Below, piece after piece: positions 5,282-29,229 of a stretch of DNA of 36,156 nt. The DNA is from Candidatus Sulfomarinibacter kjeldsenii. Lineage in GTDB: Bacteria > Acidobacteriota > Thermoanaerobaculia > Thermoanaerobaculales > Sulfomarinibacteraceae. The notes below the pieces were generated by a model. It was given only the letters and a program-made list of their open reading frames with translations. It had not been told where the DNA came from and ran no database searches. The position numbers and the translations under genes are program-made. The first letter of the stretch is position 1; the number at the start of each line of letters is the position of its first letter. The stretch covers positions 1 to 36,156 of the forward strand of contig JACXWA010000085.1 in the NCBI GenBank assembly GCA_014764485.1. Direction: 5' to 3'.

Positions 5282-5332
5282 GGGCGATCATTCGTTCGCC
5301 GTAGGACCTGATTCAGCACCAATCCTTCGCAG

Positions 5333-5446
5333 AGATTCAAGATGCAAGATACAAGATGCAAGATCTGCGACTACAGGAGTTGGTAAGACCGATGGGGTGG
5401 TCGGGCGGCCGTGTATCTTGAGACTTGCATCTTGTATCCTTTTTTT
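5333..5446. repeat. Inverted word-array repeat, family A (CAAGATGC words)
   Basis: The left arm holds four tandem copies of a CAAGAT-type word; the right arm (5412-5438) holds the reverse complement. The central part contains a GGGGTGG/CGGGCGG stretch. Two further family A copies are at 7089-7209 and 29143-29229. Confidence 0.85.
5348..5446 (+). terminator. Terminator-like hairpin with T-run after the lipid kinase gene
   Basis: A perfect 15-base stem (5348-5362 with 5424-5438) encloses a 61-base loop and is followed at once by seven T (5440-5446). The long loop is unusual for an intrinsic terminator, but the T-run and the position after a stop codon support that role. Confidence 0.5.
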
Positions 5447-7088: not shown

Positions 7089-7209
7089 CCCGCCCAGATC
7101 CAAGATGCGAGATCCAAGATGCAAGATCTCCGATCACCGGAGACGGTGAGACCGTGGGGGCGGGTGGGTGGCCTTTTATCTTGAGACTTGTATCTTGCAT
7201 CTGGGCGGG
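7089..7209. repeat. Inverted word-array repeat, family A (CAAGATGC words)
   Basis: An outer perfect 11-base stem (CCCGCCCAGAT at 7089-7099 with ATCTGGGCGGG at 7199-7209) encloses arms of CAAGAT-type words that pair imperfectly. The centre holds GGGGGCGGGTGGGTGG. It separates the sigma-factor operon from the rplU promoter. Confidence 0.85.
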
Positions 7210-17276: not shown

Positions 17277-17357
17277 ATCATCGAAGGATCTGCCATACTC
17301 GGGTGTCATATGAGGGCGCAACGATACCTTTTCACGAAGATCAGCAAAGAAGCATCG

Positions 17358-20300
17358 ATGGTGCATAACCGCACACTCGTTGGGCTGACCCTGTTTCTTC
17401 TGTGTCTTGCGCCGGCAGTACATGCCGGTCCAATTGAGGACCGCGTCCAACGTCATATTGAGGCGGCCGTCGAGGGTGGTTTGACCCCGGTCGACTACCA
17501 TCATCTCGTCTTCGCTTTCAGCTGGCGTACGACTCTCGAAGACTGGACGCTCGCCGAGCGTGGCCTCGACCGTCTTGCCGCTGCACGGCCGATCGATCCG
17601 CTGATGGTGGATGAAATCCGTTTGATGCGCGCGGAAATCGAAATTGACCGCGGCCGCGACGCTGTCGCGCGGGAGCTCTTTCGTACCATGGGTGGGCTCA
17701 CCTCGTGGTGGTTTCACGAACCGGTGGCCCTCGAGGAGCTCACCGATTTCGATCAAGTTGCGGTACCGCCTCCGGCTGAACTGGAGTGGCGGGCGACGCC
17801 GGGCACCGATCCGTCGGGATGGGTTCGTGTGTCGGGTCTCGCCTGGCCTCCGCAACGACAGATGGCCTACCTCGCAACAACGGTGGTGAGCGATCGCGAA
17901 CAGCCGGTGGCGGTGCGGGTGGGGGTAGCGCAGGTTGCGCGAGTTTGGCTCAACGGTGTTGAGCTGGCGACCACGCCGCAGCCCCTGGACCGGGCACCCG
18001 ACCAGGCGGTCGGCGGCGGGTGGCTGCGCGAGGGAGAGAATGCAGTCGTCATTGCTGTTGCTTCTGAGGACGAGCGCTGGTGGCTTCGTGCGCGTCTCAC
18101 CCGACCTGACGGCTCGACCATTGATGGGGTCCGAGAAATTCGGCAGCCGCCCGCCGTGTATCCAGCGATCGACTCTGAGCCGCCAGAAGTCCGCGAGCTC
18201 GGTTCGGAGATCCGCGATGCACTTGCTAAGGGGACCCCTGAGGCTGCGATGGCTCTGGCGGCCTTTCTCGTCGCCCGGCATCCGGAACCGGTAGGGGGAG
18301 GTAGCGCTCGCGCAGCGTGCCGGAATGCTCGCGCCGAGATGCCGGGTGAAGCACGGCTCCTGGAATGGCTCGTCACTACCGAGCCGGGGGCATCGCGGGA
18401 CCTCCTTTCGGGGGCGCTGAAAGAAGACCCTGAGCTGCTGTGGGCCCGACTCGAGCTGGCGGCCTGGTACGGAGAACGAGGGCTGTACGAGCAGGCCCAC
18501 AGTCTGCTGGCCGAAGCGGACACCGCCGGTGCCGTCATTCGCGGCGCCATGCTCGATTTTGATGCGGCTTTATGGGGGCCATTGGTCGTGCCGAAGCTGG
18601 CCGAGTTGGGTCGTGATTATCCACTGTGCGTTCGGGTCAACATGAGTCTCGCCCAAGCGGCTATCGAATCCCGCCGTTGGGATCTCGCTGCGGAAGCCGC
18701 GATGAGGCTCACAGATGTGACGCCAGGAGCAGTCGACGTCATGGAGCTCAACGAGAGGATGGCGGAAAGCTGTGGCGATGGCGTGGCGATGAGGGAGCTT
18801 TTGTCGACGCGTCTCGAGCGTGAATCGAACGCACCACGAACCAGGGTCCGTCTTGCGCGGCTGCTTGCCGCGGATGGGGATCTCGAATCGGCACGGTCGA
18901 TTCTATCGGTAGGCCTCGAACGCTCACCGACCGATGTCGATTTGATGATGGAGCTGGCGAGTGTCGAGCACTCGGTGGCCGACGATGCGGCCGCAGCAGA
19001 GCTTGCTCGAGGTGTGCTCGAGATCCGACCCCAGGACCGCCGCGCTCAACGTCTGCTCGAGCTGCTGGGTGAGGAGAGAGAGAATCTCGACTGGCTTCGT
19101 TCCCCGGACGAGCTATGGCGGATGGCCGATGCGGCTCCGGCTGCGACGCCGGCAGTCGCAATTCTCGACCACCAACAGATCCGATTCCTGCCTTCACGCT
19201 TGACTGAGGAAAGGGTTCAGCAGGTGTTCTTGGTCACCGATGCTGCGCGAGCTGATGAACTGCGCAGCCAACACATCCCCTATGTCGCCGAAAACCAGCG
19301 CCTGCGCGTTCTGCGTTCGAGAATCCTGCGTCGCGACGGCTCCGAGGTAGGTGCCCGCCAGGGTGACACCCCCCGCCTGTCAGAGCCCGAGTTCAACCTT
19401 TACTACGACACGCGTTTGCGAATCCTTCGATTTGATGAGCTTGAAAACGGCGACCTCGTCGAGATCGCCTACGTCCTTTCCGAAACCGATGAGGCCAACG
19501 AGACCGGCCCGTACAATGGCGGGCTGATTCCCCTCGGTCGCGGGGTTCCGGTGGCGCTGATGGAGGTTGAGTTGGTGGCGCCGGGCGGGATTCTTCCGGA
19601 TTGGGAAATTGCCAACCTCGAGGGAGAACCGGTGCGCGACGAGGACCAGGAGGGCGTCGTCCGACTGCACTGGGAATGGCGTGACCTCCCAGCGATCCCA
19701 ACTGACGTACCTGCCGCCCCACAGCTCATGGTAATGCCCTACCTGATCTACTCGAACCACCCTCAGTGGGGTGATCTGGCGGATTGGTATGGACGCCACG
19801 TGGCGTCGAGAGTACGAACGTCGGAGCAGGTGGAGGAAACCGCTCATCGCCTGGTCAATGGTCTCGACGACCGACTCGAACGAATCAACCGCCTCTACCG
19901 TTTCGTAACCATCGATATTCGCTACGTCGGACTCGAGTTTGGGGAGCATCGCTATCGCCCATTTTCTGCTGATTGGGTCCTCCACCATCGCATCGGCGAC
20001 TGCAAGGACAAAGCCGCCCTTCTGGTGGCATTGCTCGACGCCATCGATGTGCCGGCACGAATGGTGATGATCCGGACCGCAGATCTTGGTCCTGTCAGTA
20101 GCGAACTCGCCGTTCTCGAAGTCTTCAACCACGCGATCGTCTACCTGCCCGAGGACGATCTGTGGCTCGACGGAACCGCAACCGGTCACGCACCCTATCC
20201 ACCACCATCGATGGATCAGGACGCATTTGTTCTGGTCGTTGACGGGTCCCTGAGTCAACCTCAGTTCTCGCCGACGGTGGGCGCCGGGAAGACGAATATA

Positions 20301-20894
20301 CGCTTCACCCTCGAACCCGGCGACGCATCCGATGTGGCGATCTCGATCGAGACTCGCGATACGGGTGAAGCAGCCGACCTTCGACGGGGACGGTTTGCCG
20401 GCAGTCGGGATCCACAACGGTTTGCGCGCTGGTTGCAGGAGCTTTTTCCCGGTGCCCAACTCACCGGTGAGCCCATGATGCAACTGGTGCCGGGCCGAGA
20501 TCCGACAATTGTTAAGCTCCAAGGCACGATTTCGAAGACTGCGCTGGCGAGCGGTGGTGGCGTCGGCACGTACCCCGGGGAGCTCGGGTGGGCAGCTCGA
20601 ATGGTGCCGGGCGGTATCCGACATGGGCCTCTGAAGATCAACGTACGACCCGACCTCGAATGGTCCCTCGAGGTCGATCTCGGACGCCCGCCAAAAACCC
20701 TGCCGGATGCGGTTGAACTGGTCACCCCGTTCGGTTCTTTGCGTATTGCAACCGCGGGTCTGAGCAGCGGCTACCGGGTCGATGGCTCTCTGCACTTTGA
20801 AGCAGGGACCTTCGATGCAGAGGAGGTTGGCGGACTGCGGGAATTTCTGGTGACGGTCGAGCGACACCTGGAGAGACGGTTGGAGGCACCATGA
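17358..20894 (+). CDS. Large secreted DUF3857 / transglutaminase-like protein
   Basis: From ATG 17358 the product has 1178 residues and a clear signal peptide (LVGLTLFLLCLAPAVHA). A beta-rich, ligand-binding-like region covers about residues 130-260. Helical TPR-like repeats cover about 290-580, a DUF3857 domain about 608-790 and a transglutaminase-like core about 830-945. The core has an intact Cys-His-Asp set: C882 in GDCKDK, H925 in FNHAIVYL, D938 in LWLDGTA. It is therefore likely an active cysteine enzyme (peptidase or transferase) in the periplasm or on the cell surface. The start is set by the signal peptide; the frame opens 48 bases earlier. Its stop overlaps the ATG of a paralogue of the same length. 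Substrate unknown. Confidence 0.85.
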   Translation: MVHNRTLVGLTLFLLCLAPAVHAGPIEDRVQRHIEAAVEGGLTPVDYHHLVFAFSWRTTLEDWTLAERGLDRLAAARPIDPLMVDEIRLMRAEIEIDRGRDAVARELFRTMGGLTSWWFHEPVALEELTDFDQVAVPPPAELEWRATPGTDPSGWVRVSGLAWPPQRQMAYLATTVVSDREQPVAVRVGVAQVARVWLNGVELATTPQPLDRAPDQAVGGGWLREGENAVVIAVASEDERWWLRARLTRPDGSTIDGVREIRQPPAVYPAIDSEPPEVRELGSEIRDALAKGTPEAAMALAAFLVARHPEPVGGGSARAACRNARAEMPGEARLLEWLVTTEPGASRDLLSGALKEDPELLWARLELAAWYGERGLYEQAHSLLAEADTAGAVIRGAMLDFDAALWGPLVVPKLAELGRDYPLCVRVNMSLAQAAIESRRWDLAAEAAMRLTDVTPGAVDVMELNERMAESCGDGVAMRELLSTRLERESNAPRTRVRLARLLAADGDLESARSILSVGLERSPTDVDLMMELASVEHSVADDAAAAELARGVLEIRPQDRRAQRLLELLGEERENLDWLRSPDELWRMADAAPAATPAVAILDHQQIRFLPSRLTEERVQQVFLVTDAARADELRSQHIPYVAENQRLRVLRSRILRRDGSEVGARQGDTPRLSEPEFNLYYDTRLRILRFDELENGDLVEIAYVLSETDEANETGPYNGGLIPLGRGVPVALMEVELVAPGGILPDWEIANLEGEPVRDEDQEGVVRLHWEWRDLPAIPTDVPAAPQLMVMPYLIYSNHPQWGDLADWYGRHVASRVRTSEQVEETAHRLVNGLDDRLERINRLYRFVTIDIRYVGLEFGEHRYRPFSADWVLHHRIGDCKDKAALLVALLDAIDVPARMVMIRTADLGPVSSELAVLEVFNHAIVYLPEDDLWLDGTATGHAPYPPPSMDQDAFVLVVDGSLSQPQFSPTVGAGKTNIRFTLEPGDASDVAISIETRDTGEAADLRRGRFAGSRDPQRFARWLQELFPGAQLTGEPMMQLVPGRDPTIVKLQGTISKTALASGGGVGTYPGELGWAARMVPGGIRHGPLKINVRPDLEWSLEVDLGRPPKTLPDAVELVTPFGSLRIATAGLSSGYRVDGSLHFEAGTFDAEEVGGLREFLVTVERHLERRLEAP

Positions 20895-23800
20895 TCAATC
20901 TATGGCGCCGCGCAGTCCTGATCGTCGTCTGTGTCGTCCCGTCGCTGGCGGTCAACGCGGGCTGGTGGGAGGTGTGGCAGGCGGGGATGGAGTTCGACCT
21001 CAACAGCGCCCGTGAGCACGCCCTGGCGACCATTGCTGCAGACCCGAACAGTGCCGACGCAGTGGCGGCCGCCTCCTGGTGGCTCGCCAATATCGAGGAC
21101 CTCCCAGAGCCGGAAGAGGTGTTGACGGCAGTTGACAACGGTCGTGATCCGGAGCTCGGGTTCATTCTCGAGCGGGTGGCGGCCCGCCTCGGCGCCCGCC
21201 CGCCTGCCGGAGCCCTGACAACAGCCGAACTGGCGGGTACTTTTGGTGTCTTCAGCGCCCTCGATCTTGACCGAAACGTAGTGCCGCCGGATTCGGAATT
21301 GCCACCTCTCGGTACCACGTGGTCCGATCCTGCAGTTCCGTTTCATTTGCTGATGCGGACCGCCGACGCATGGCATGGACCGCCCCGGGCCATGATGGCT
21401 GACGGCGTCTTTCTCGTCTCCTGGACGTTGGACGCGGCAGCTGAAATGAACGGTTGGATGGTAGTCGAGGCGAGGGGTGGCTACAACCTTGAGCTGGACG
21501 GACGTCCGGTCGATCGGCGCCGAAACTGCGGACAGGTGGATCCAGGCGCCGCGTGGTACCGCCTGCGTCTCGCTCAAGGGTTGCACCGGTTGCGGTTGGA
21601 GGTGGCATCTCCCGATGGCCCCGAGGTTCGTCTCAGCCTGCTCGATGATCAGGGACGCCCGATCAAAGGTGTGACCCGGATAGACCAGGCTGACGGAGGG
21701 TGGGCCAATTCCGAAATCACCGCCGCACTGCCGCCCGCTTCCGCCGAGCTATCACAGCGACTCGAGGCGGAAAACGCATCAGCGCCCGAGTTTCTTCTCG
21801 CTGCGCAGCTGGCCCGCGTGCGCAGCGACCCGGCAGGCGAGTACCGGTGGATTGAGCGTAGCCGAGGGGTTGACACCGAAGATCCGTGGGCGGCCCTTGC
21901 CCTGGCCCGGCATTTCATTACGACGGATGGCGGCGTGCCGGGTGCCGAGCGCGCCCGCTACATCGGTCAGCTCCTGAGGGCGGCGAGTACCATACCCGGT
22001 TCGCGCCTCTTCGAGCGGTCAGTGGCGATGCGTGAGGGGCGAGGAGAGGACGCGGAAAAGATCCTCGATCAGTTGGTGGCCGACCACCCCGACGATTCAC
22101 GTGTTTTGCGAATATGGGTTCGTGAGAGCGTAAGGAGGGGCTGGGTACGTGAGGCCGAGGAAGGGCTGGCTCAGCTGGAAGCGGACCTCCCGGGTTCTCT
22201 GGCCGTGACCGACCTCCGGCTCGAAGTTCTGGCCTCTCTTGAACGGTGGCGTGAGCGGGACTCACTGCTGCGCGCGTTGGCCGTCGCGACTCCGGTCGAG
22301 ACACGGTGGATCGGTCAGATGGCGTCGAGCTGCCTTGTCGGTGAAGCGGCTGCTGCCACTGCGAGCCTGGCCCCTGAGGTGATGGACCCGGACCTCGATG
22401 TTCAGTTGGTGACGCTCCTCCTGGAGAACGGAGATATCGGAACCGCGGGCGCTGAGCTCAAACTGGCGCGGGAGCGATGGGGAGATCTCAGGGTCTTCGA
22501 CGAGCTCGGCCTGTTGCTGGCCGGAGACAACCACGAGGCGCTGCTTGCGACGCTTGCCGGCGCCCTCGACCGGGATCCGTCAAATCTCCAACTCCTGACC
22601 TTGTCGTGGCGCAACGGCACCGAGCCGTTCTTTGCGCCCTTTGCGGTCGAATCCAGCGATTTCATCGGCAAATACCGCGATCTGGGGGAGGATGTCGATG
22701 CTGTGCTGCTTCTCGACCAGGCGGTGGAGCGGATATTCGTAGATGGATCGAGCCTTTATTACTACCACGGGCTGACCCGAGCCAACACGCCGGTGGGAGC
22801 GCGGCGAGCTTCGGTTCTGCAGCCACTGCCGGATGCCCACATTCTCAACATCAGGATCCTCAAGCCGGATGGTGGCGTCGTGGTGCCGAGTGATATTCAG
22901 CCGGGACAGGGCGGCATCACCCTTTCGGATGTCGATCCCGGTGACATTGTCGAGGAGGAGTATGTGGCCTGGGTCGGTCCGACCGGCGCATCTCGCGACG
23001 GTCACCTCCCGCCCTACATTTACCGCTTTGCCGATCCCGACCGCGCGTTCGGTCTCTCCGAGTACATCCTTCTGGTGCCACCCGAGGTTGATATTCAAGT
23101 GGACGGCAACTTCGAGGGGTTGGAGCGCAGCGAGAAGGAGTGGCAGGACCTGCGGATGCTGTATTGGCGCGCGGAGAATGTACCCCCGATGCCTACCGAG
23201 CCATTTGCTCCTCCCGCCCAGGATCTGATGCCCTGGCTCAACTACGGTTTCGGGGTCAGCTGGCAGGACGTGGGTGATGCGGTGCGGGACCGGGTACTGC
23301 CGGCTTTGAGATCATCTCCAGAGCTCCGCGAATGGACCCGGGAGGTGCTGGTCGGCGAGACGCCCGAGGAGCAGCTCGATTCCCTGGTCGAGGCGCTGGT
23401 GGAGACCGTAGAACGCGGGAACGGTGAAATATCGGTGGCAGATACCGCCGGTGAGAGCTTTGGCCGCCGCCGGGGCAACCGTCTCGGCATCGTCGCTGCC
23501 GTGCTCGTGGAGGCAGGTTGGGATGTCGACCTGATACTCACCCGACCTTGGACGGACCGCGATCAACGTCTTCAGGTGCCGACCCTCGACGCCTTTCCAG
23601 TGGCCCTCCTGCGGGTAGCTCTCGATGGGGACGAAATCTGGTTTGACAGTCGCGAGGAACGGCGCGGCGTCGGCTCGATACATGCTCTTTTCCAGGGGAG
23701 CGATGGCCTGGTTCTGCCGCTCTCGGATTCCCGTCTGCCGGTCGTACGCATCGAAACGTTGCCGACCTTTCCCAACCCGGATTTGGTTGACGAACTCGCT

Positions 23801-24427
23801 GTGCGAGCGACCGTCGCCGCAGATGGAGGAGTGAATATCGCCTTCACGATGCCGCTTCGGGGCGGCCAGGCCACCAGGCTTCTCGAAAGACTGGAGAGCG
23901 TTCCAGAGGACCAGGTTGGAATGGTCTACCGGCAGATGGCCCTCTCCATGTTTCCGGGTGCCGACACGGTCGATGGCGAGGTCGAGAAGACCGAAGATGG
24001 CGCCACCATTCGTCTCGAAATCACCGTTCCAGGTGGGTGTGACGCGGAGGACGGCGAACTCGTGTGTCGAAGCTTGATTCTCGCCAACCCGGTGGTACCG
24101 ACGCTGGCTCGTCTTCCGGAACGCACCTATCCCTTGATGTTACGGGTGCCGATAGAGCGCCGGATCCAGCTTGATCTTGTGCCCCCACCTGGGTGGGAGC
24201 CGAAAAAGAGGAAGCCGCGGCAGATGGATGCAGAGTGGGGGTCAGTCAGCGAGACCCTCGAGATGGTCGGCGCTAGCCTCCAGTCGGTCCTGCACATCTC
24301 ACTGCCCGCGCAGACCGTGCCGCCCACGGACTACCGTGTATTCGCGCGTTTCTGTCAGGCAATCGATGAGCTCACTACACGGCCCCCTCGTCTGGAGCGC
24401 ATTGAGTCCCGCCCACCCACCCAGTAA
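20891..24427 (+). CDS. Second secreted DUF3857 protein with a degenerate transglutaminase-like core
   Basis: The product is also 1178 residues and has a signal peptide (MINLWRRAVLIVVCVVPSLAVNAG). Its domain order mirrors the upstream paralogue: a beta-rich region (about 150-270), TPR-like helices (280-570), DUF3857 (about 600-780) and a transglutaminase-like core (800-925). In the core, the segment matching GDCKDKAALLVALL reads RRRGNRLGIVAAVLV, so the catalytic Cys is lost. The segment matching FNHAIVYL reads FPVALLRV, so the His is lost too; only D919 (IWFDSRE) remains. It is probably a non-enzymatic partner of the upstream protein. The four-base overlap of the genes implies coupled translation and perhaps a complex in fixed ratio. 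Confidence 0.8.
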   Translation: MINLWRRAVLIVVCVVPSLAVNAGWWEVWQAGMEFDLNSAREHALATIAADPNSADAVAAASWWLANIEDLPEPEEVLTAVDNGRDPELGFILERVAARLGARPPAGALTTAELAGTFGVFSALDLDRNVVPPDSELPPLGTTWSDPAVPFHLLMRTADAWHGPPRAMMADGVFLVSWTLDAAAEMNGWMVVEARGGYNLELDGRPVDRRRNCGQVDPGAAWYRLRLAQGLHRLRLEVASPDGPEVRLSLLDDQGRPIKGVTRIDQADGGWANSEITAALPPASAELSQRLEAENASAPEFLLAAQLARVRSDPAGEYRWIERSRGVDTEDPWAALALARHFITTDGGVPGAERARYIGQLLRAASTIPGSRLFERSVAMREGRGEDAEKILDQLVADHPDDSRVLRIWVRESVRRGWVREAEEGLAQLEADLPGSLAVTDLRLEVLASLERWRERDSLLRALAVATPVETRWIGQMASSCLVGEAAAATASLAPEVMDPDLDVQLVTLLLENGDIGTAGAELKLARERWGDLRVFDELGLLLAGDNHEALLATLAGALDRDPSNLQLLTLSWRNGTEPFFAPFAVESSDFIGKYRDLGEDVDAVLLLDQAVERIFVDGSSLYYYHGLTRANTPVGARRASVLQPLPDAHILNIRILKPDGGVVVPSDIQPGQGGITLSDVDPGDIVEEEYVAWVGPTGASRDGHLPPYIYRFADPDRAFGLSEYILLVPPEVDIQVDGNFEGLERSEKEWQDLRMLYWRAENVPPMPTEPFAPPAQDLMPWLNYGFGVSWQDVGDAVRDRVLPALRSSPELREWTREVLVGETPEEQLDSLVEALVETVERGNGEISVADTAGESFGRRRGNRLGIVAAVLVEAGWDVDLILTRPWTDRDQRLQVPTLDAFPVALLRVALDGDEIWFDSREERRGVGSIHALFQGSDGLVLPLSDSRLPVVRIETLPTFPNPDLVDELAVRATVAADGGVNIAFTMPLRGGQATRLLERLESVPEDQVGMVYRQMALSMFPGADTVDGEVEKTEDGATIRLEITVPGGCDAEDGELVCRSLILANPVVPTLARLPERTYPLMLRVPIERRIQLDLVPPPGWEPKKRKPRQMDAEWGSVSETLEMVGASLQSVLHISLPAQTVPPTDYRVFARFCQAIDELTTRPPRLERIESRPPTQ

Positions 24428-24500: not shown

Positions 24501-24553
24501 GCGACAGAGAGATTCATGCACCTGGCGATGTTGTGGTTATACTCAGCGCCGAC

Positions 24554-25459
24554 ATGGAAATGCTCGACGGCACAGTCATCGCGATGCACGGCCCGCTGGT
24601 CCGAGTGCAAATTGGAGGCGAAACCCTGGTGGTCTCGTCTCGGCGGCGCCTCAACTGGGAGGGCGGAACGCCGTCGGCGGCCCGTCTGGTCGTCGGTGAT
24701 TCGGTCACCCTGGAGATGCAGGGCGAGGACGGCGTCATCGTCGCCGTCCATGCACGCCGAAACTACCTTCTTCGGAAGGCACCGTCGAAGAACCGCGCCC
24801 AGATTCTGGCGGCGAATGTCGACCAGGCCCTGCTTGTCTTTGCCGCCCGCGAACCGGTGCCCAAACCGGGTCTCCTGGATCGTTTCCTTGTCGCCTGCCG
24901 TCTCGCGGGCATCGACGCAGTCATCACGATCAATAAAGCCGATCAGGGGACCGAGGAGGTCGAGGAATGGCTCCCTGCCTATGCCCACCTCGATAATCGG
25001 GTGCTCCTGGTGTCTGCCCGCACCGGCTGGGGTCTCGGCGCCGTCAAACGGATGCTCGTCGATCGGACCACCCTCTTCTGTGGTCCCTCGGGCGCCGGCA
25101 AGTCGTCACTGCTCAACGCGGTCTATCCCGGGTTTCGGCTCAAGGTGGGTGAGCTCTCGGAGAGCACCGGCAAGGGAAAGCACACCACGAGCGCGGCCGA
25201 GCTCATGCCGTTGCCCTACGGGGGATTTGTGGTCGACACCCCCGGCCTCAGAGAGTTCGGCGTGTGGGAAGTCACCCGGGAAGAGCTCGCGGGTGCCTTT
25301 CCGGAAATCGCGAGCCATAGCGGTGAATGCCGTTTTCCCGATTGCAGCCACGACCACGAACCGGACTGTGCCGTCCTTGCGGCACTCGAGGCGGGCGAGA
25401 TCGCCGATCATCGATTCAAGAGCTATTTGAGGATCCTCGAAGAAGCCCTCGAGCAGTAG
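24554..25459 (+). CDS. rsgA: Ribosome small-subunit-dependent GTPase A (circularly permuted GTPase)
   Basis: The 301-residue protein has an OB-fold start (LDGTVIAMHGPLVRVQIGGE), then the permuted GTPase order typical of RsgA: G4 TINKADQ, G1 GPSGAGKSSLLNAV, G3 DTPGLREFG. A C-terminal zinc site follows (CRFPDCSHDHEPDCAV). RsgA checks and releases late 30S subunits, using GTP. ATG 24554 is chosen from the start of similarity; the frame opens at GTG 24533. TATACT lies ten bases before this ATG. It follows a terminator-like repeat and so is probably its own unit. Confidence 0.95.
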   Translation: MEMLDGTVIAMHGPLVRVQIGGETLVVSSRRRLNWEGGTPSAARLVVGDSVTLEMQGEDGVIVAVHARRNYLLRKAPSKNRAQILAANVDQALLVFAAREPVPKPGLLDRFLVACRLAGIDAVITINKADQGTEEVEEWLPAYAHLDNRVLLVSARTGWGLGAVKRMLVDRTTLFCGPSGAGKSSLLNAVYPGFRLKVGELSESTGKGKHTTSAAELMPLPYGGFVVDTPGLREFGVWEVTREELAGAFPEIASHSGECRFPDCSHDHEPDCAVLAALEAGEIADHRFKSYLRILEEALEQ

Positions 25460-25565: not shown

Positions 25566-27902
25566 CTAGCCCACCGCGCGGTGCGGGGCGGCGAGGAAAC
25601 ATGCCAGGTATCCGGGACGGCTGCGGAGAGTTGCCAATGGGGTCGCCATGCCCGCGGTTTCGCGTCGCAAGCTCTCGTAGATCCGGGCGAGCTCGAATCG
25701 GTTGCGGAAGAGCCACATTTCCATTGGTTCGCCGGGTTTGAGCTCTGGCGTCTGGATGGGCACCCGAATCGCATGCAGGAGGACATCGTCCGTGTCCCGG
25801 TACTCACCGAAGATCCACTTCCTATTTCCGTCCTCCAGCAGGTAGGTGATCACGAGGAGGTTTGTTTCGATGCTCTCCTCCGTCGTGAGCGTTGCTTCCT
25901 CCGGCGATCGGTCACCCTGGGTGTGGTGACGGAGGAGGCCGACGAGCGTGCGCTTGAACGGGATCTCCTCTCGTTCCTCCGGCATTTGTGTCAACACCAT
26001 AGCCTCCACCAGCTCCTGGGGTGGAAGACCTTTGAGTCGGGCCACTCCGAGATACCGGAGGCCAACAAACAGGGTGTCGGGCATGCCAGGATCAACAGGG
26101 AAAAGGACCCACCGGGAACTGTCGAGGGTTGCCACCGCCAGAGTCGAGATCTCCATCTCAATCTCCAGCTCCTCGATGAACGGCATCGCAATGACGACGC
26201 CTTCGTTGACCAGTTCGCCGTGGCCGTCGATGGTCGCCGCGTAGGGCCGGGTCGAAATCTGCTCTCTTCCGCTGCGCACCGAAGCCAGCGGTGACAAGAA
26301 GAGATCGACCTCTCCAGGGTCATAGCCGGAATGGACGAGGAATTCAGCGATGTCGGAGACCTCGCGGACACTCTTTCCGGTGGTCAGGCGCGCGAGTTCG
26401 ACGATGCCGTGACCGAAGAACTCGAATCTCTTCGCTTCAGGACCCGGATGCAACATCGGAAGCAGACGATAGACTCCGTAGTTAAGAGCAATACGGATGC
26501 CATGATTGAACGGGAAGCCAACTTCTCGGAGTTGCTCGTAGACCTGTTGAATTTCACACGCAGCGGCGATCACCCGCACGGCTCGCCGCGAGGTGTAGAA
26601 CGCTCCGTCACCGAGGAACTTCTCAAACGTCAGACGACGACGGAGGCGGATCGCCTCGAGGCGGTTTTGGAATACGTACATGAACTGGAGCGCACGCTCT
26701 TCAGCCATCCGCCCAGCCTTACGAACCTCTTCGAGAACGGTGGTGAAATTTGAAAGATCGTAGATCAGCCCGAAGCGGCGGACCGCGGAGTCGACGACGC
26801 CGGGTGCGGTGAAATCGTAGGGGCGGGTCGTCTTTGCGATCGGAGTCTCAGTGGTGCGGCCCCTCAGCACGAGAGAGGTCCCCTGACGCTGCATGGGAAG
26901 GACGCGCCTCCTCAGTGCGGCGAGCAGCTCGAATGTCTTGAGCCGGACACCGAGGTCGCGCAGGAGATTCATCTGGACCACGGAGAGATTCAGGGTGTCG
27001 GCGAGCCCGGCAGTCTGAATGGCATCCAGGAGTTTCGGCTCGAGGAGGGTTTCTGGTCGATCGAGTTTGAGGCCCGAGCCGACCGCAAGCCGGAGGAGGC
27101 TCCCGACCTCAGGTCTGCGGGCAACCAGATCACGGAGGCGCTCGAGCACCTGGTTGTTGGCCTGGACCACGGCCTCGGCTCGTTGTCGAAACCGTGCCTG
27201 CATGTACGAGCTGAGCTGAGAGATGTCCTGTGGGGGGCGGGAATCGATGAGGAGCAACTGGTCCTGGCATATGATTCCGAGCAGTGGTGTGAGGACGGGC
27301 GTGACCTGAACCCTGGCCAACTGTTTGAGATGATCGACTGCAGTCATAGCGGCGCGTCGCAGGAGATCGGCGATGACCGTCGCGATAGCCTGACGTATGT
27401 CGTCGCCATTTCCTCGCAGCGCGCCGGAACGCGGATTGGAGGCCGCCTTCGACACTTTTGCCAGGGCCCGGGTGACCTCGCCGCTATGAAAGAGAAGGAA
27501 GAGATCCGCCAATCCTCGGTGGTAGTCGTTCATCACGACGTTTTCCAGGGTCGCAGACATCGACTTGTGATAGCGGTCGCGGTGGGTCATCATCCGCTGC
27601 TTGTCTTCGCGGTCACCCATTTGCGAGCGAAGTCGGTATTCCGCCTCGGCTTCGACTAAAGCTTCGAGGTCGCGTCGCAGCTTGAGCACCCCTTCGGAGA
27701 GGAGCAACGGATAACCCCAGGTGACAACCTTCTCTTCATCGCGCCCGAAGATTGGAAAGGGGGCGGGCAACGATGCCGCGAGCACGGGGAAGAGATCGCA
27801 CCAACCACCGTCGACCTCGCTCTGTGTCAGATAGACGGGGTTGCGGAGCTCTTCCTGCAGTACCTGCCGGAAAGCATCCGTGGCTTTCTCATCACGTGCC
27901 AT
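25566..27902 (-). CDS. Large protein with a class III nucleotide cyclase-like domain
   Basis: The 778-residue cytoplasmic protein has no membrane segment. Residues 1-365 are helical and charged, with no family I recognise. Residues 373-510 look like a class III adenylate/guanylate cyclase fold. IYDLSNFT (379-386) matches the first metal motif, KFLGDG (428-433) the second with its Asp, GIRIALNYG the central strand, and FFGHGIVELARL the VNxAxRL motif. In the last motif the usual Asn is Glu, while the Arg is kept. So the metal-binding residues are present but the substrate pocket is altered: it may be active on an unusual substrate or be a sensor fold. The C-terminal 250 residues are unknown. 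ATG 27902 is supported by TACAAT six bases before it. It is divergent from a cNMP-binding-fold gene. Confidence 0.6.
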   Translation of the reverse strand: MARDEKATDAFRQVLQEELRNPVYLTQSEVDGGWCDLFPVLAASLPAPFPIFGRDEEKVVTWGYPLLLSEGVLKLRRDLEALVEAEAEYRLRSQMGDREDKQRMMTHRDRYHKSMSATLENVVMNDYHRGLADLFLLFHSGEVTRALAKVSKAASNPRSGALRGNGDDIRQAIATVIADLLRRAAMTAVDHLKQLARVQVTPVLTPLLGIICQDQLLLIDSRPPQDISQLSSYMQARFRQRAEAVVQANNQVLERLRDLVARRPEVGSLLRLAVGSGLKLDRPETLLEPKLLDAIQTAGLADTLNLSVVQMNLLRDLGVRLKTFELLAALRRRVLPMQRQGTSLVLRGRTTETPIAKTTRPYDFTAPGVVDSAVRRFGLIYDLSNFTTVLEEVRKAGRMAEERALQFMYVFQNRLEAIRLRRRLTFEKFLGDGAFYTSRRAVRVIAAACEIQQVYEQLREVGFPFNHGIRIALNYGVYRLLPMLHPGPEAKRFEFFGHGIVELARLTTGKSVREVSDIAEFLVHSGYDPGEVDLFLSPLASVRSGREQISTRPYAATIDGHGELVNEGVVIAMPFIEELEIEMEISTLAVATLDSSRWVLFPVDPGMPDTLFVGLRYLGVARLKGLPPQELVEAMVLTQMPEEREEIPFKRTLVGLLRHHTQGDRSPEEATLTTEESIETNLLVITYLLEDGNRKWIFGEYRDTDDVLLHAIRVPIQTPELKPGEPMEMWLFRNRFELARIYESLRRETAGMATPLATLRSRPGYLACFLAAPHRAVG

Positions 27903-27908
27903 CTCCCC

Positions 27909-27914
27909 ATTGTA
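27909..27914 (-). promoter_or_regulatory. TANNNT -10 element of a probable leaderless promoter (cyclase-like gene)
   Basis: On the minus strand TACAAT lies exactly six bases before ATG 27902. The GGGGAG in between touches the ATG and is too close to act as a Shine-Dalgarno sequence. Confidence 0.5.
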
Positions 27915-27984
27915 TCTTCGAGCCTGCCTATCCCGCCAGATTTCTGCTGCGGCCGGAGATCTGCCGCAAGCTGAGGAGTTTCCT

Positions 27985-27996
27985 CCTACCGGTAGG
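27985..27996. promoter_or_regulatory. Perfect palindrome CCTACCGGTAGG in the divergent gap, possible operator
   Basis: The 12-base palindrome lies midway in the 147-base gap between the cyclase-like gene and the cNMP-binding/DUF4388 gene. A small GAGGA/TCCTC inverted repeat overlaps its left edge. The position suits an operator acting on both genes. No matching regulator can be named. Confidence 0.35.
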
Positions 27997-28049
27997 CGAG
28001 GCTGATGATCGATCGAACACATCAGGGTGGATTGTGGTACATATTTTAA

Positions 28050-29084
28050 ATGCTCTTCGAGGATCTCGTGCGGGCCGTTAGAGATTGCCCTTTCTTTCAC
28101 GGCATGCCCCCTGACGAACAAATGTCGCTTGTGCGCCTCGGTGGGGTTGACGTTCAATCGGTTGGGGGGGTTTTGTTTCGTCCCGGCGAGGTGCCCGCCG
28201 CGCTCTACCTGGTGCTCGATGGTGTGGTCGAGATCTGTCGCGAGGAGAGCCAGGAGGTGGGCCTACAACCAGTAGCCTATATCGGGGCGGGATCGACCAT
28301 ATCCGAGGCCAAGGTTCTCACCGGCACCGCCCTGAACTCCATGGCACACTTTCCCGAAGGGGGAACCACCCTGCAGTGGCCGCGCCCGGTCCTGCTTCGC
28401 CAGCTCTATTCGTCGCGAGATTTTGCCCTACATTATCTGCAGAGTCTGGCGCGGCGCCTCGAGGGGACAGTCGCCAACCTCGGTGCTTACAGCGGCAGCA
28501 ACCTCCGTGGCAAACTCGAGCATTTTGATCTTCCGGCCATCCTCCAGACAGTGGTCGAGTCAGGCGCGACAGGGGTGCTCGAGGTGAACGACCAGGACGG
28601 AAACACCTTTGGTGCAATCCACACCCGGGACAAGATGATCGGGCGTATCCTCTGCGGAAATCTCTCCGGGCCTGAAGCGTTTTTGGAGATCTTGAACTCC
28701 CCACCGAAATTGGGGACCTTCAGGTTCTCGACCTTGTCGTCACCAGGTGAAACCGATCAGTATCTCCCAGTACAACCCCTGCTCTTCGAGGCGGCGCGAA
28801 TCCAGGACGAGTTTGCCCACTTTGCCGATACGGTTCCGGAAACAGCCTACCTTCGCCCAGCTGCCGGACATCTGGTATGGAACTCCGAATCCGATTCCGA
28901 CCTTGTCGAACAGATTTGGCACCAGCTTTCTGCTCAACCGTGCGGATGGGGTCTTCTGGCCGAGATGCTGCCGTTCAGCCGGGGACAGATCGGCCTCGCA
29001 GTTCGGGACATGCTCCTTGCCGGTGTCATTACGGTTGACCGGCCGTACGAGGTGGGAAGCAGCGATCAGGCCCTGGGCGCCTGA
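28050..29084 (+). CDS. Cyclic-nucleotide-binding-fold protein with DUF4388 domain
   Basis: The 344-residue protein has an N-terminal cNMP-binding-type beta roll (about 12-125: FHGMPPDEQMSLVRLG, LFRPGEVPAALYLVLDGVVEI). A DUF4388 domain (about 150-250) follows, starting LRGKLEHFDLPAILQTV and including SGATGVLEV. The last 90 residues are helical and unassigned. In the phosphate-binding cassette the Glu is kept (TISEAKVL), but the Arg that contacts the cyclic phosphate is not visible, so binding of cAMP or cGMP is uncertain. There is no helix-turn-helix, so it is not a Crp-type transcription factor. The ATG follows TACATATTTTAA with no Shine-Dalgarno. It is divergent from the cyclase-like gene and may act in the same pathway. 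Confidence 0.75.
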   Translation: MLFEDLVRAVRDCPFFHGMPPDEQMSLVRLGGVDVQSVGGVLFRPGEVPAALYLVLDGVVEICREESQEVGLQPVAYIGAGSTISEAKVLTGTALNSMAHFPEGGTTLQWPRPVLLRQLYSSRDFALHYLQSLARRLEGTVANLGAYSGSNLRGKLEHFDLPAILQTVVESGATGVLEVNDQDGNTFGAIHTRDKMIGRILCGNLSGPEAFLEILNSPPKLGTFRFSTLSSPGETDQYLPVQPLLFEAARIQDEFAHFADTVPETAYLRPAAGHLVWNSESDSDLVEQIWHQLSAQPCGWGLLAEMLPFSRGQIGLAVRDMLLAGVITVDRPYEVGSSDQALGA

Positions 29085-29142: not shown

Positions 29143-29229
29143 CCCCAGATCCAAGATGCAAGATCAGAGGTTGGCTTCTCCCGACTCGGGGTGGGTGGGC
29201 GGATCTTGTATCTTGAATCTTGTATCCGG
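29143..29229. repeat. Inverted word-array repeat, family A (CAAGATGC words)
   Basis: The left arm CCCAGATCCAAGATGCAAG pairs with the right arm (29202-29229) made of three ATCTTGTA/ATCTTGAA words. The centre has GGGGTGGGTGGGCGG. It separates the DUF4388 gene from the histidine kinase gene. Confidence 0.85.

Follow-up and report, generated by a model that had tools for sequence, protein, structure and literature searches.

The divergent gene P0001 probably encodes an active purine-nucleotide cyclase of an uncatalogued Thermoanaerobaculia subfamily, and P0002 beside it is probably a late neighbour and not a dedicated receptor. Both genes lie in the window, the whole 36,156-nucleotide stretch of DNA analysed here, whose contig is part of an incomplete (67%) assembly of 1.78 Mb; the nearest relatives that bear a name belong to the Thermoanaerobaculales (Acidobacteriota). 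The two open reading frames were found where the initial annotation had placed them, divergent and 147 bp apart:

25566–27902, minus strand: P0001 gene, 778 aa, divergent class III nucleotidyl-cyclase-like protein

27903–28049, no strand: intergenic region of 147 bp between the divergent genes

28050–29084, plus strand: P0002 gene, 344 aa, cNMP-type beta-roll, DUF4388 and a C-terminal small helical region

Within-genus comparison gave dN/dS values of ~0.08–0.34 for P0001 and P0002, indicating purifying selection, and therefore neither is a chance open reading frame. A simple-consensus scan of the intergenic region returned no promoter match.

We modelled P0001 with AlphaFold by using an alignment of 77 sequences, and the model reached a mean pLDDT of 87.9. 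When this model was compared with the PDB by Foldseek, the matches listed were adenylyl and guanylyl cyclases, with E values down to 3e-6 and target TM scores of 0.7–0.79 for CyaB, Rv1900c, and Ma1120. The family profile aligned with canonical cyclases at an E value of 3e-8 and with P0004, a full-length relative that bears the canonical Asn, at 2.5e-18 over 524 columns (both hhalign). Pfam shows no significant match for P0001 and 27 family members, the Guanylate_cyc model included, and P0004 is a Guanylate_cyc match (1.9e-9); since P0004 aligns with the P0001 family and also matches the Pfam cyclase family, it bridges the gap between them. Additionally, a joint profile including P0004 retrieved CyaB from the PDB at an E value of 5e-8 (hmmsearch). 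By predicted fold and homology, P0001 is a class III cyclase. The AlphaFold model and the Foldseek matches bear out the cyclase core that had been proposed from the sequence, and the objection that structure prediction might reveal no cyclase fold falls away. The regions of P0001 are as follows:

26913–27902, minus strand: N-terminal mainly helical domain, residues 1–330, shared over its full length with P0004 and belonging to no known family

25983–26810, minus strand: cyclase homology domain, residues ~365–640, seen in the AlphaFold secondary structure, Foldseek, hhalign, and hmmsearch against the PDB

The cyclase domain is longer than first described, extending not to residue 515 but to ~640, and it includes K624-G625. 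Compared with the canonical class III cyclases (Guanylate_cyc PF00211; CyaB, CyaC, Cya2), P0001 adopts the same fold with the two metal-binding Asp residues, but has a family-specific N-terminal domain, an insertion before the last strands, and no Pfam match in the 27 members. P0001 would act as a soluble homodimer-type class III cyclase whose complete catalytic domain is joined to the N-terminal helical domain, and the latter may control activity. P0004, encoded at L034 1117–2877 (minus strand) in another family of the phylum, carries the canonical Asn-Arg pair and offers a useful comparison for the origin of the altered P0001 pocket.

P0002 can be divided into three regions:

28050–28460, plus strand: beta-roll, residues 1–137, with a phosphate-binding cassette that lacks Arg

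28506–28811, plus strand: DUF4388/PATAN domain, residues 153–254, Pfam E value 1.2e-8

28842–29039, plus strand: C-terminal three-helix region with short strands, residues ~265–330, from the secondary structure of the model

The pattern of the C-terminal region suggests that it may be winged-helix-like. The beta-roll scores 24.2 bits against the Pfam cNMP model (3.4e-5), below the curated cut-off of 27.5, and its Foldseek matches are the cNMP domains of CRP, PKG, and PKA; DUF4388 scores 35.4 bits, above the Pfam curated cut-off of 25. In the nine orthologues the cassette follows the pattern E-[SA]-[KR]-[VI]-[IL]-T-G-[TS], which departs from the cNMP cassette G-E-x(n)-R-[ST]-A, and neither a conserved phosphate-binding Arg nor a conserved replacement comes after it. 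Pfam, Foldseek, and the orthologues thus confirm the earlier description of P0002 as a cNMP-type roll without the phosphate-binding Arg, fused to DUF4388. Like CRP/FNR-type cNMP proteins with PATAN (DUF4388), P0002 has both domains, but it has lost the phosphate-binding cassette. Many cNMP-domain proteins elsewhere in the same genomes retain a P-R-[ST]-A cassette, and DUF4388 is common in these genomes, with 9–16 copies. In the literature searched we found no assigned function for the combination of a cNMP roll with DUF4388; cyanobacterial PATAN-REC proteins exert their effect by binding to PilB1, the pilus motor (PMC9090330). Because the P0002 cassette is degenerate, canonical cNMP proteins are present in these genomes, and the PATAN-REC proteins provide a precedent, a role in protein contacts is probably more likely for P0002 than that of a nucleotide receptor. 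Such contacts may involve the adjacent histidine kinase and response regulator, which lie in the following surroundings:

24533–25459, plus strand: RsgA GTPase, convergent with P0001 and kept beside it with or without P0002

29330–32008, plus strand: PDZ/PAS histidine kinase, co-directional with P0002

31981–33360, plus strand: NtrC-type response regulator, neighbour of the P0001/P0002 locus

P0002 might also touch P0001 physically or share divergent control with it, regulating P0001 or the histidine kinase without a nucleotide ligand. This is a tentative reading of P0002, which is compatible with P0001 being an active cyclase. It is consistent with the common 147-bp intergenic region, with the divergent arrangement conserved in one clade, with the degenerate roll, and with the PilB1 binding of cyanobacterial PATAN-REC proteins (PMC9090330); however, P0002 runs in the same direction as the kinase genes and may be part of that group.

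The active site of P0001 was analysed by counting residue conservation over 77 aligned family members, whose near-invariant columns are concentrated in residues 361–520. The positions of interest, all on the minus strand, are listed below:

26757–26759, minus strand: D382, first metal-binding Asp, identical in 77/77

26619–26621, minus strand: K428, base-specifying Lys of K-x-x-G-D, identical in 77/77

26607–26609, minus strand: D432, second metal-binding Asp, identical in 77/77

26421–26423, minus strand: E494, at the base-specifying Asp/Thr position, identical in 77/77

26400–26402, minus strand: V501, at the transition-state Asn position, Val or Ile in 76/77

26397–26399, minus strand: E502, the residue after the Asn position, Glu in 77/77

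26388–26390, minus strand: R505, transition-state Arg, identical in 77/77

26031–26033, minus strand: K624, candidate phosphate-binding Lys of the LKG motif, identical in 77/77

The roles of D382, K428, D432, E494, R505, and K624 are those which we take from established knowledge of class III cyclases. Both metal-binding Asp residues, which the initial annotation had noted in the protein, are kept throughout the family, while the Glu that it read in place of the substrate-binding Asn is off by one residue. Specifically, the P0001 motif F-F-G-H-G-I-V-E-L-A-R and the P0004 motif V-I-G-R-N-V-N-L-A-G-R align without a gap, and thus the Asn position corresponds to V501. The same position is given by profile alignments to canonical cyclases, by aligning the family jointly with two full-length relatives that carry the Asn, and by the ungapped strand-Gly497-helix register of the model. 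Glu502 lies one residue later and was ruled out as an Asn substitute. The family therefore keeps only Arg505 (77/77) of the transition-state Asn-Arg pair, with Val or Ile for Asn. In class III cyclases, a base-specifying pair of Lys with Asp or Thr selects ATP, and one of Glu with Cys selects GTP. The pair in P0001 is K428 and E494, a Lys-Glu combination as in DUF2652, and the substrate would most likely be ATP, less likely GTP or both. Like canonical cyclases, P0001 has the Lys of K-x-x-G-D, an Arg four residues past the Asn position, and the LKG Lys; unlike them, it has Val or Ile for Asn, Glu as the base partner, and an altered phosphate loop. Residue 385, at the position of the phosphate-loop Gly (D-x-x-G-F), is variable in the family (Asp, Asn, Glu, or Ala), and the joint alignment shows that the Gly-rich strand of canonical cyclases is replaced.

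Since the Gly of the D-x-x-G-F loop and the Gly-rich strand are both replaced, P0001 could be a catalytically dead fold, retained to serve regulation by binding nucleotides or dimerising. We consider this unlikely, although the loss of Asn points the same way, none of the 27 members tested matches the Pfam cyclase model, and a canonical cyclase is encoded elsewhere in the same genome. The identity of D382, D432, K428, E494, R505, and K624 in 77/77 members would be surprising in proteins that no longer carried out metal-dependent chemistry, and an active cyclase is known that lacks the Asn: Ma1120 from Mycobacterium avium is an adenylyl cyclase that makes cAMP with Ala in place of Asn, and introducing Asn lowers its activity (PMC4215837). 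Ma1120 resembles P0001 in keeping the Lys and Arg and in having a small hydrophobic residue for Asn (Foldseek target TM 0.77–0.79), but differs in its base partner, which is Asp and not Glu, and in its N-terminal architecture. Mycobacterial DUF2652 cyclase-like proteins combine the Lys-Glu pair with Ile for Asn (PMC4886424), and P0001 shows the whole DUF2652 (PF10851) signature of two Asp, Lys and Glu, Arg, and an aliphatic residue for Asn. Membership of P0001 in DUF2652 was nevertheless rejected: none of the 27 members matches PF10851 at E ≤ 0.1, and hhalign with one DUF2652 member gives a probability of 0.1%. The DUF2652 member examined has Ile after the Asn position, whereas P0001 has Glu. 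The Asn-free Lys-Glu pocket of P0001 gives a clear-cut way of testing how much alteration class III catalysis can withstand.

P0001 homologues are present in 65 of 100 relatives, comprising 36/37 of the same order and 29/63 of the others in the class, and in 18 of 297 genomes sampled across the phylum. Most family genomes carry one copy, and the gene is nearly always single. A single member, L128, is labelled Deltaproteobacteria; it sits inside Thermoanaerobaculia on the cyclase tree, and the label is probably an error. No relatives were found among viral contigs, and a viral origin or spread was rejected. Although the family is strongly conserved, with members in nearly every genome of the order and in many of the class, the current Pfam model misses it, as judged from 27 members. 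Annotations of Acidobacteriota therefore probably understate cyclic nucleotide signalling.

The distribution of P0002 is much narrower: orthologues occur only in nine genomes from three genera of one subclade. P0002 is divergent from P0001 in all eight judgeable genomes, the ninth having a contig break at the site, and on the cyclase tree its presence as a neighbour maps to a single change on a small, young branch (branch support 70). In L080, from a sister genus, the histidine kinase gene is the immediate neighbour of P0001, without an intervening P0002. The altered P0001 pocket does not vary among the members that lack P0002, which make up most of the family, and therefore the change in one pocket did not accompany that in the other. 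The initial annotation had proposed that the pair makes and senses an atypical nucleotide, with P0001 producing it and the P0002 beta-roll binding it. The eight divergent pairs and the departure of both pockets from canonical residues fit this proposal, but we regard it as very unlikely: P0002 has a single origin in a small clade, gene order within this clade is broadly conserved (RsgA and the histidine kinase, for example, are found there whether or not P0002 is present), and the roll has no Arg or conserved replacement with which to hold the phosphate. Asn loss is known in active Ma1120 and in DUF2652 proteins, so an atypical nucleotide is not implied. Nor, for the most part, do the genes prove to be neighbours elsewhere. 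When 78 genes immediately adjoining other members of the family were scanned, cNMP_binding and DUF4388 were absent from the 25 commonest families, and at most two could be hidden. The general idea of a cyclase beside a cNMP domain is shared with Pycsar (a pyrimidine cyclase with a cNMP-binding effector), but P0002 contains neither a TIR nor a transmembrane effector and lacks the receptor Arg that is kept in PycTIR (R97), and P0001 differs from Pycsar in being an order-wide, nearly always single-copy gene. PADLOC gave no match for P0001 or P0002, and Pycsar or another known defence system was rejected. It is most improbable that the P0001 family, through its Lys-Glu pair and invariant E-L-x-R motif, makes a cyclic nucleotide other than cAMP or cGMP for which P0002 is the dedicated reader in one clade. 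P0002 appears to be a lineage-specific, late-acquired neighbour of the P0001 cyclase, and the pairing is not to be read as a new two-part signalling system.

Other P0001 family members adjoin comM, purC, pepA, phoH, or helicase genes, with comM upstream at 15 loci, purC downstream at 24, and pepA divergent at 13. These neighbours are diverse and mostly housekeeping genes, and a conserved signalling partner of P0001 elsewhere was rejected. One branch of the class has purC (SAICAR synthetase) as the next gene downstream of its P0001 homologue, and in several loci the two genes overlap or are a few tens of bases apart (L113 4263, L127 5373, L108 11925, and others). This linkage, confined to one branch, hints at purine metabolism, and our reading of P0001 does not draw on it.

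Two further features of the window were observed. Adjacent genes at 17310–20894 and 20891–24427 encode DUF3857 proteins of ~1180–1190 aa, which are conserved near P0001 in the same family; the first (17310–20894) also contains a transglutaminase core and TPR. A dispersed heptad repeat, (NATCTTG)n, occurs at 5331–5364, 7101–7128, and 29145–29165/29202–29222, and the 1.78-Mb assembly contains ~55 near-matches to it, whereas the reversed pattern has 0. The copies at 29147–29165 and 29202–29220, which lie between P0002 and the histidine kinase gene, are arranged as an inverted repeat, a REP-like intergenic element.
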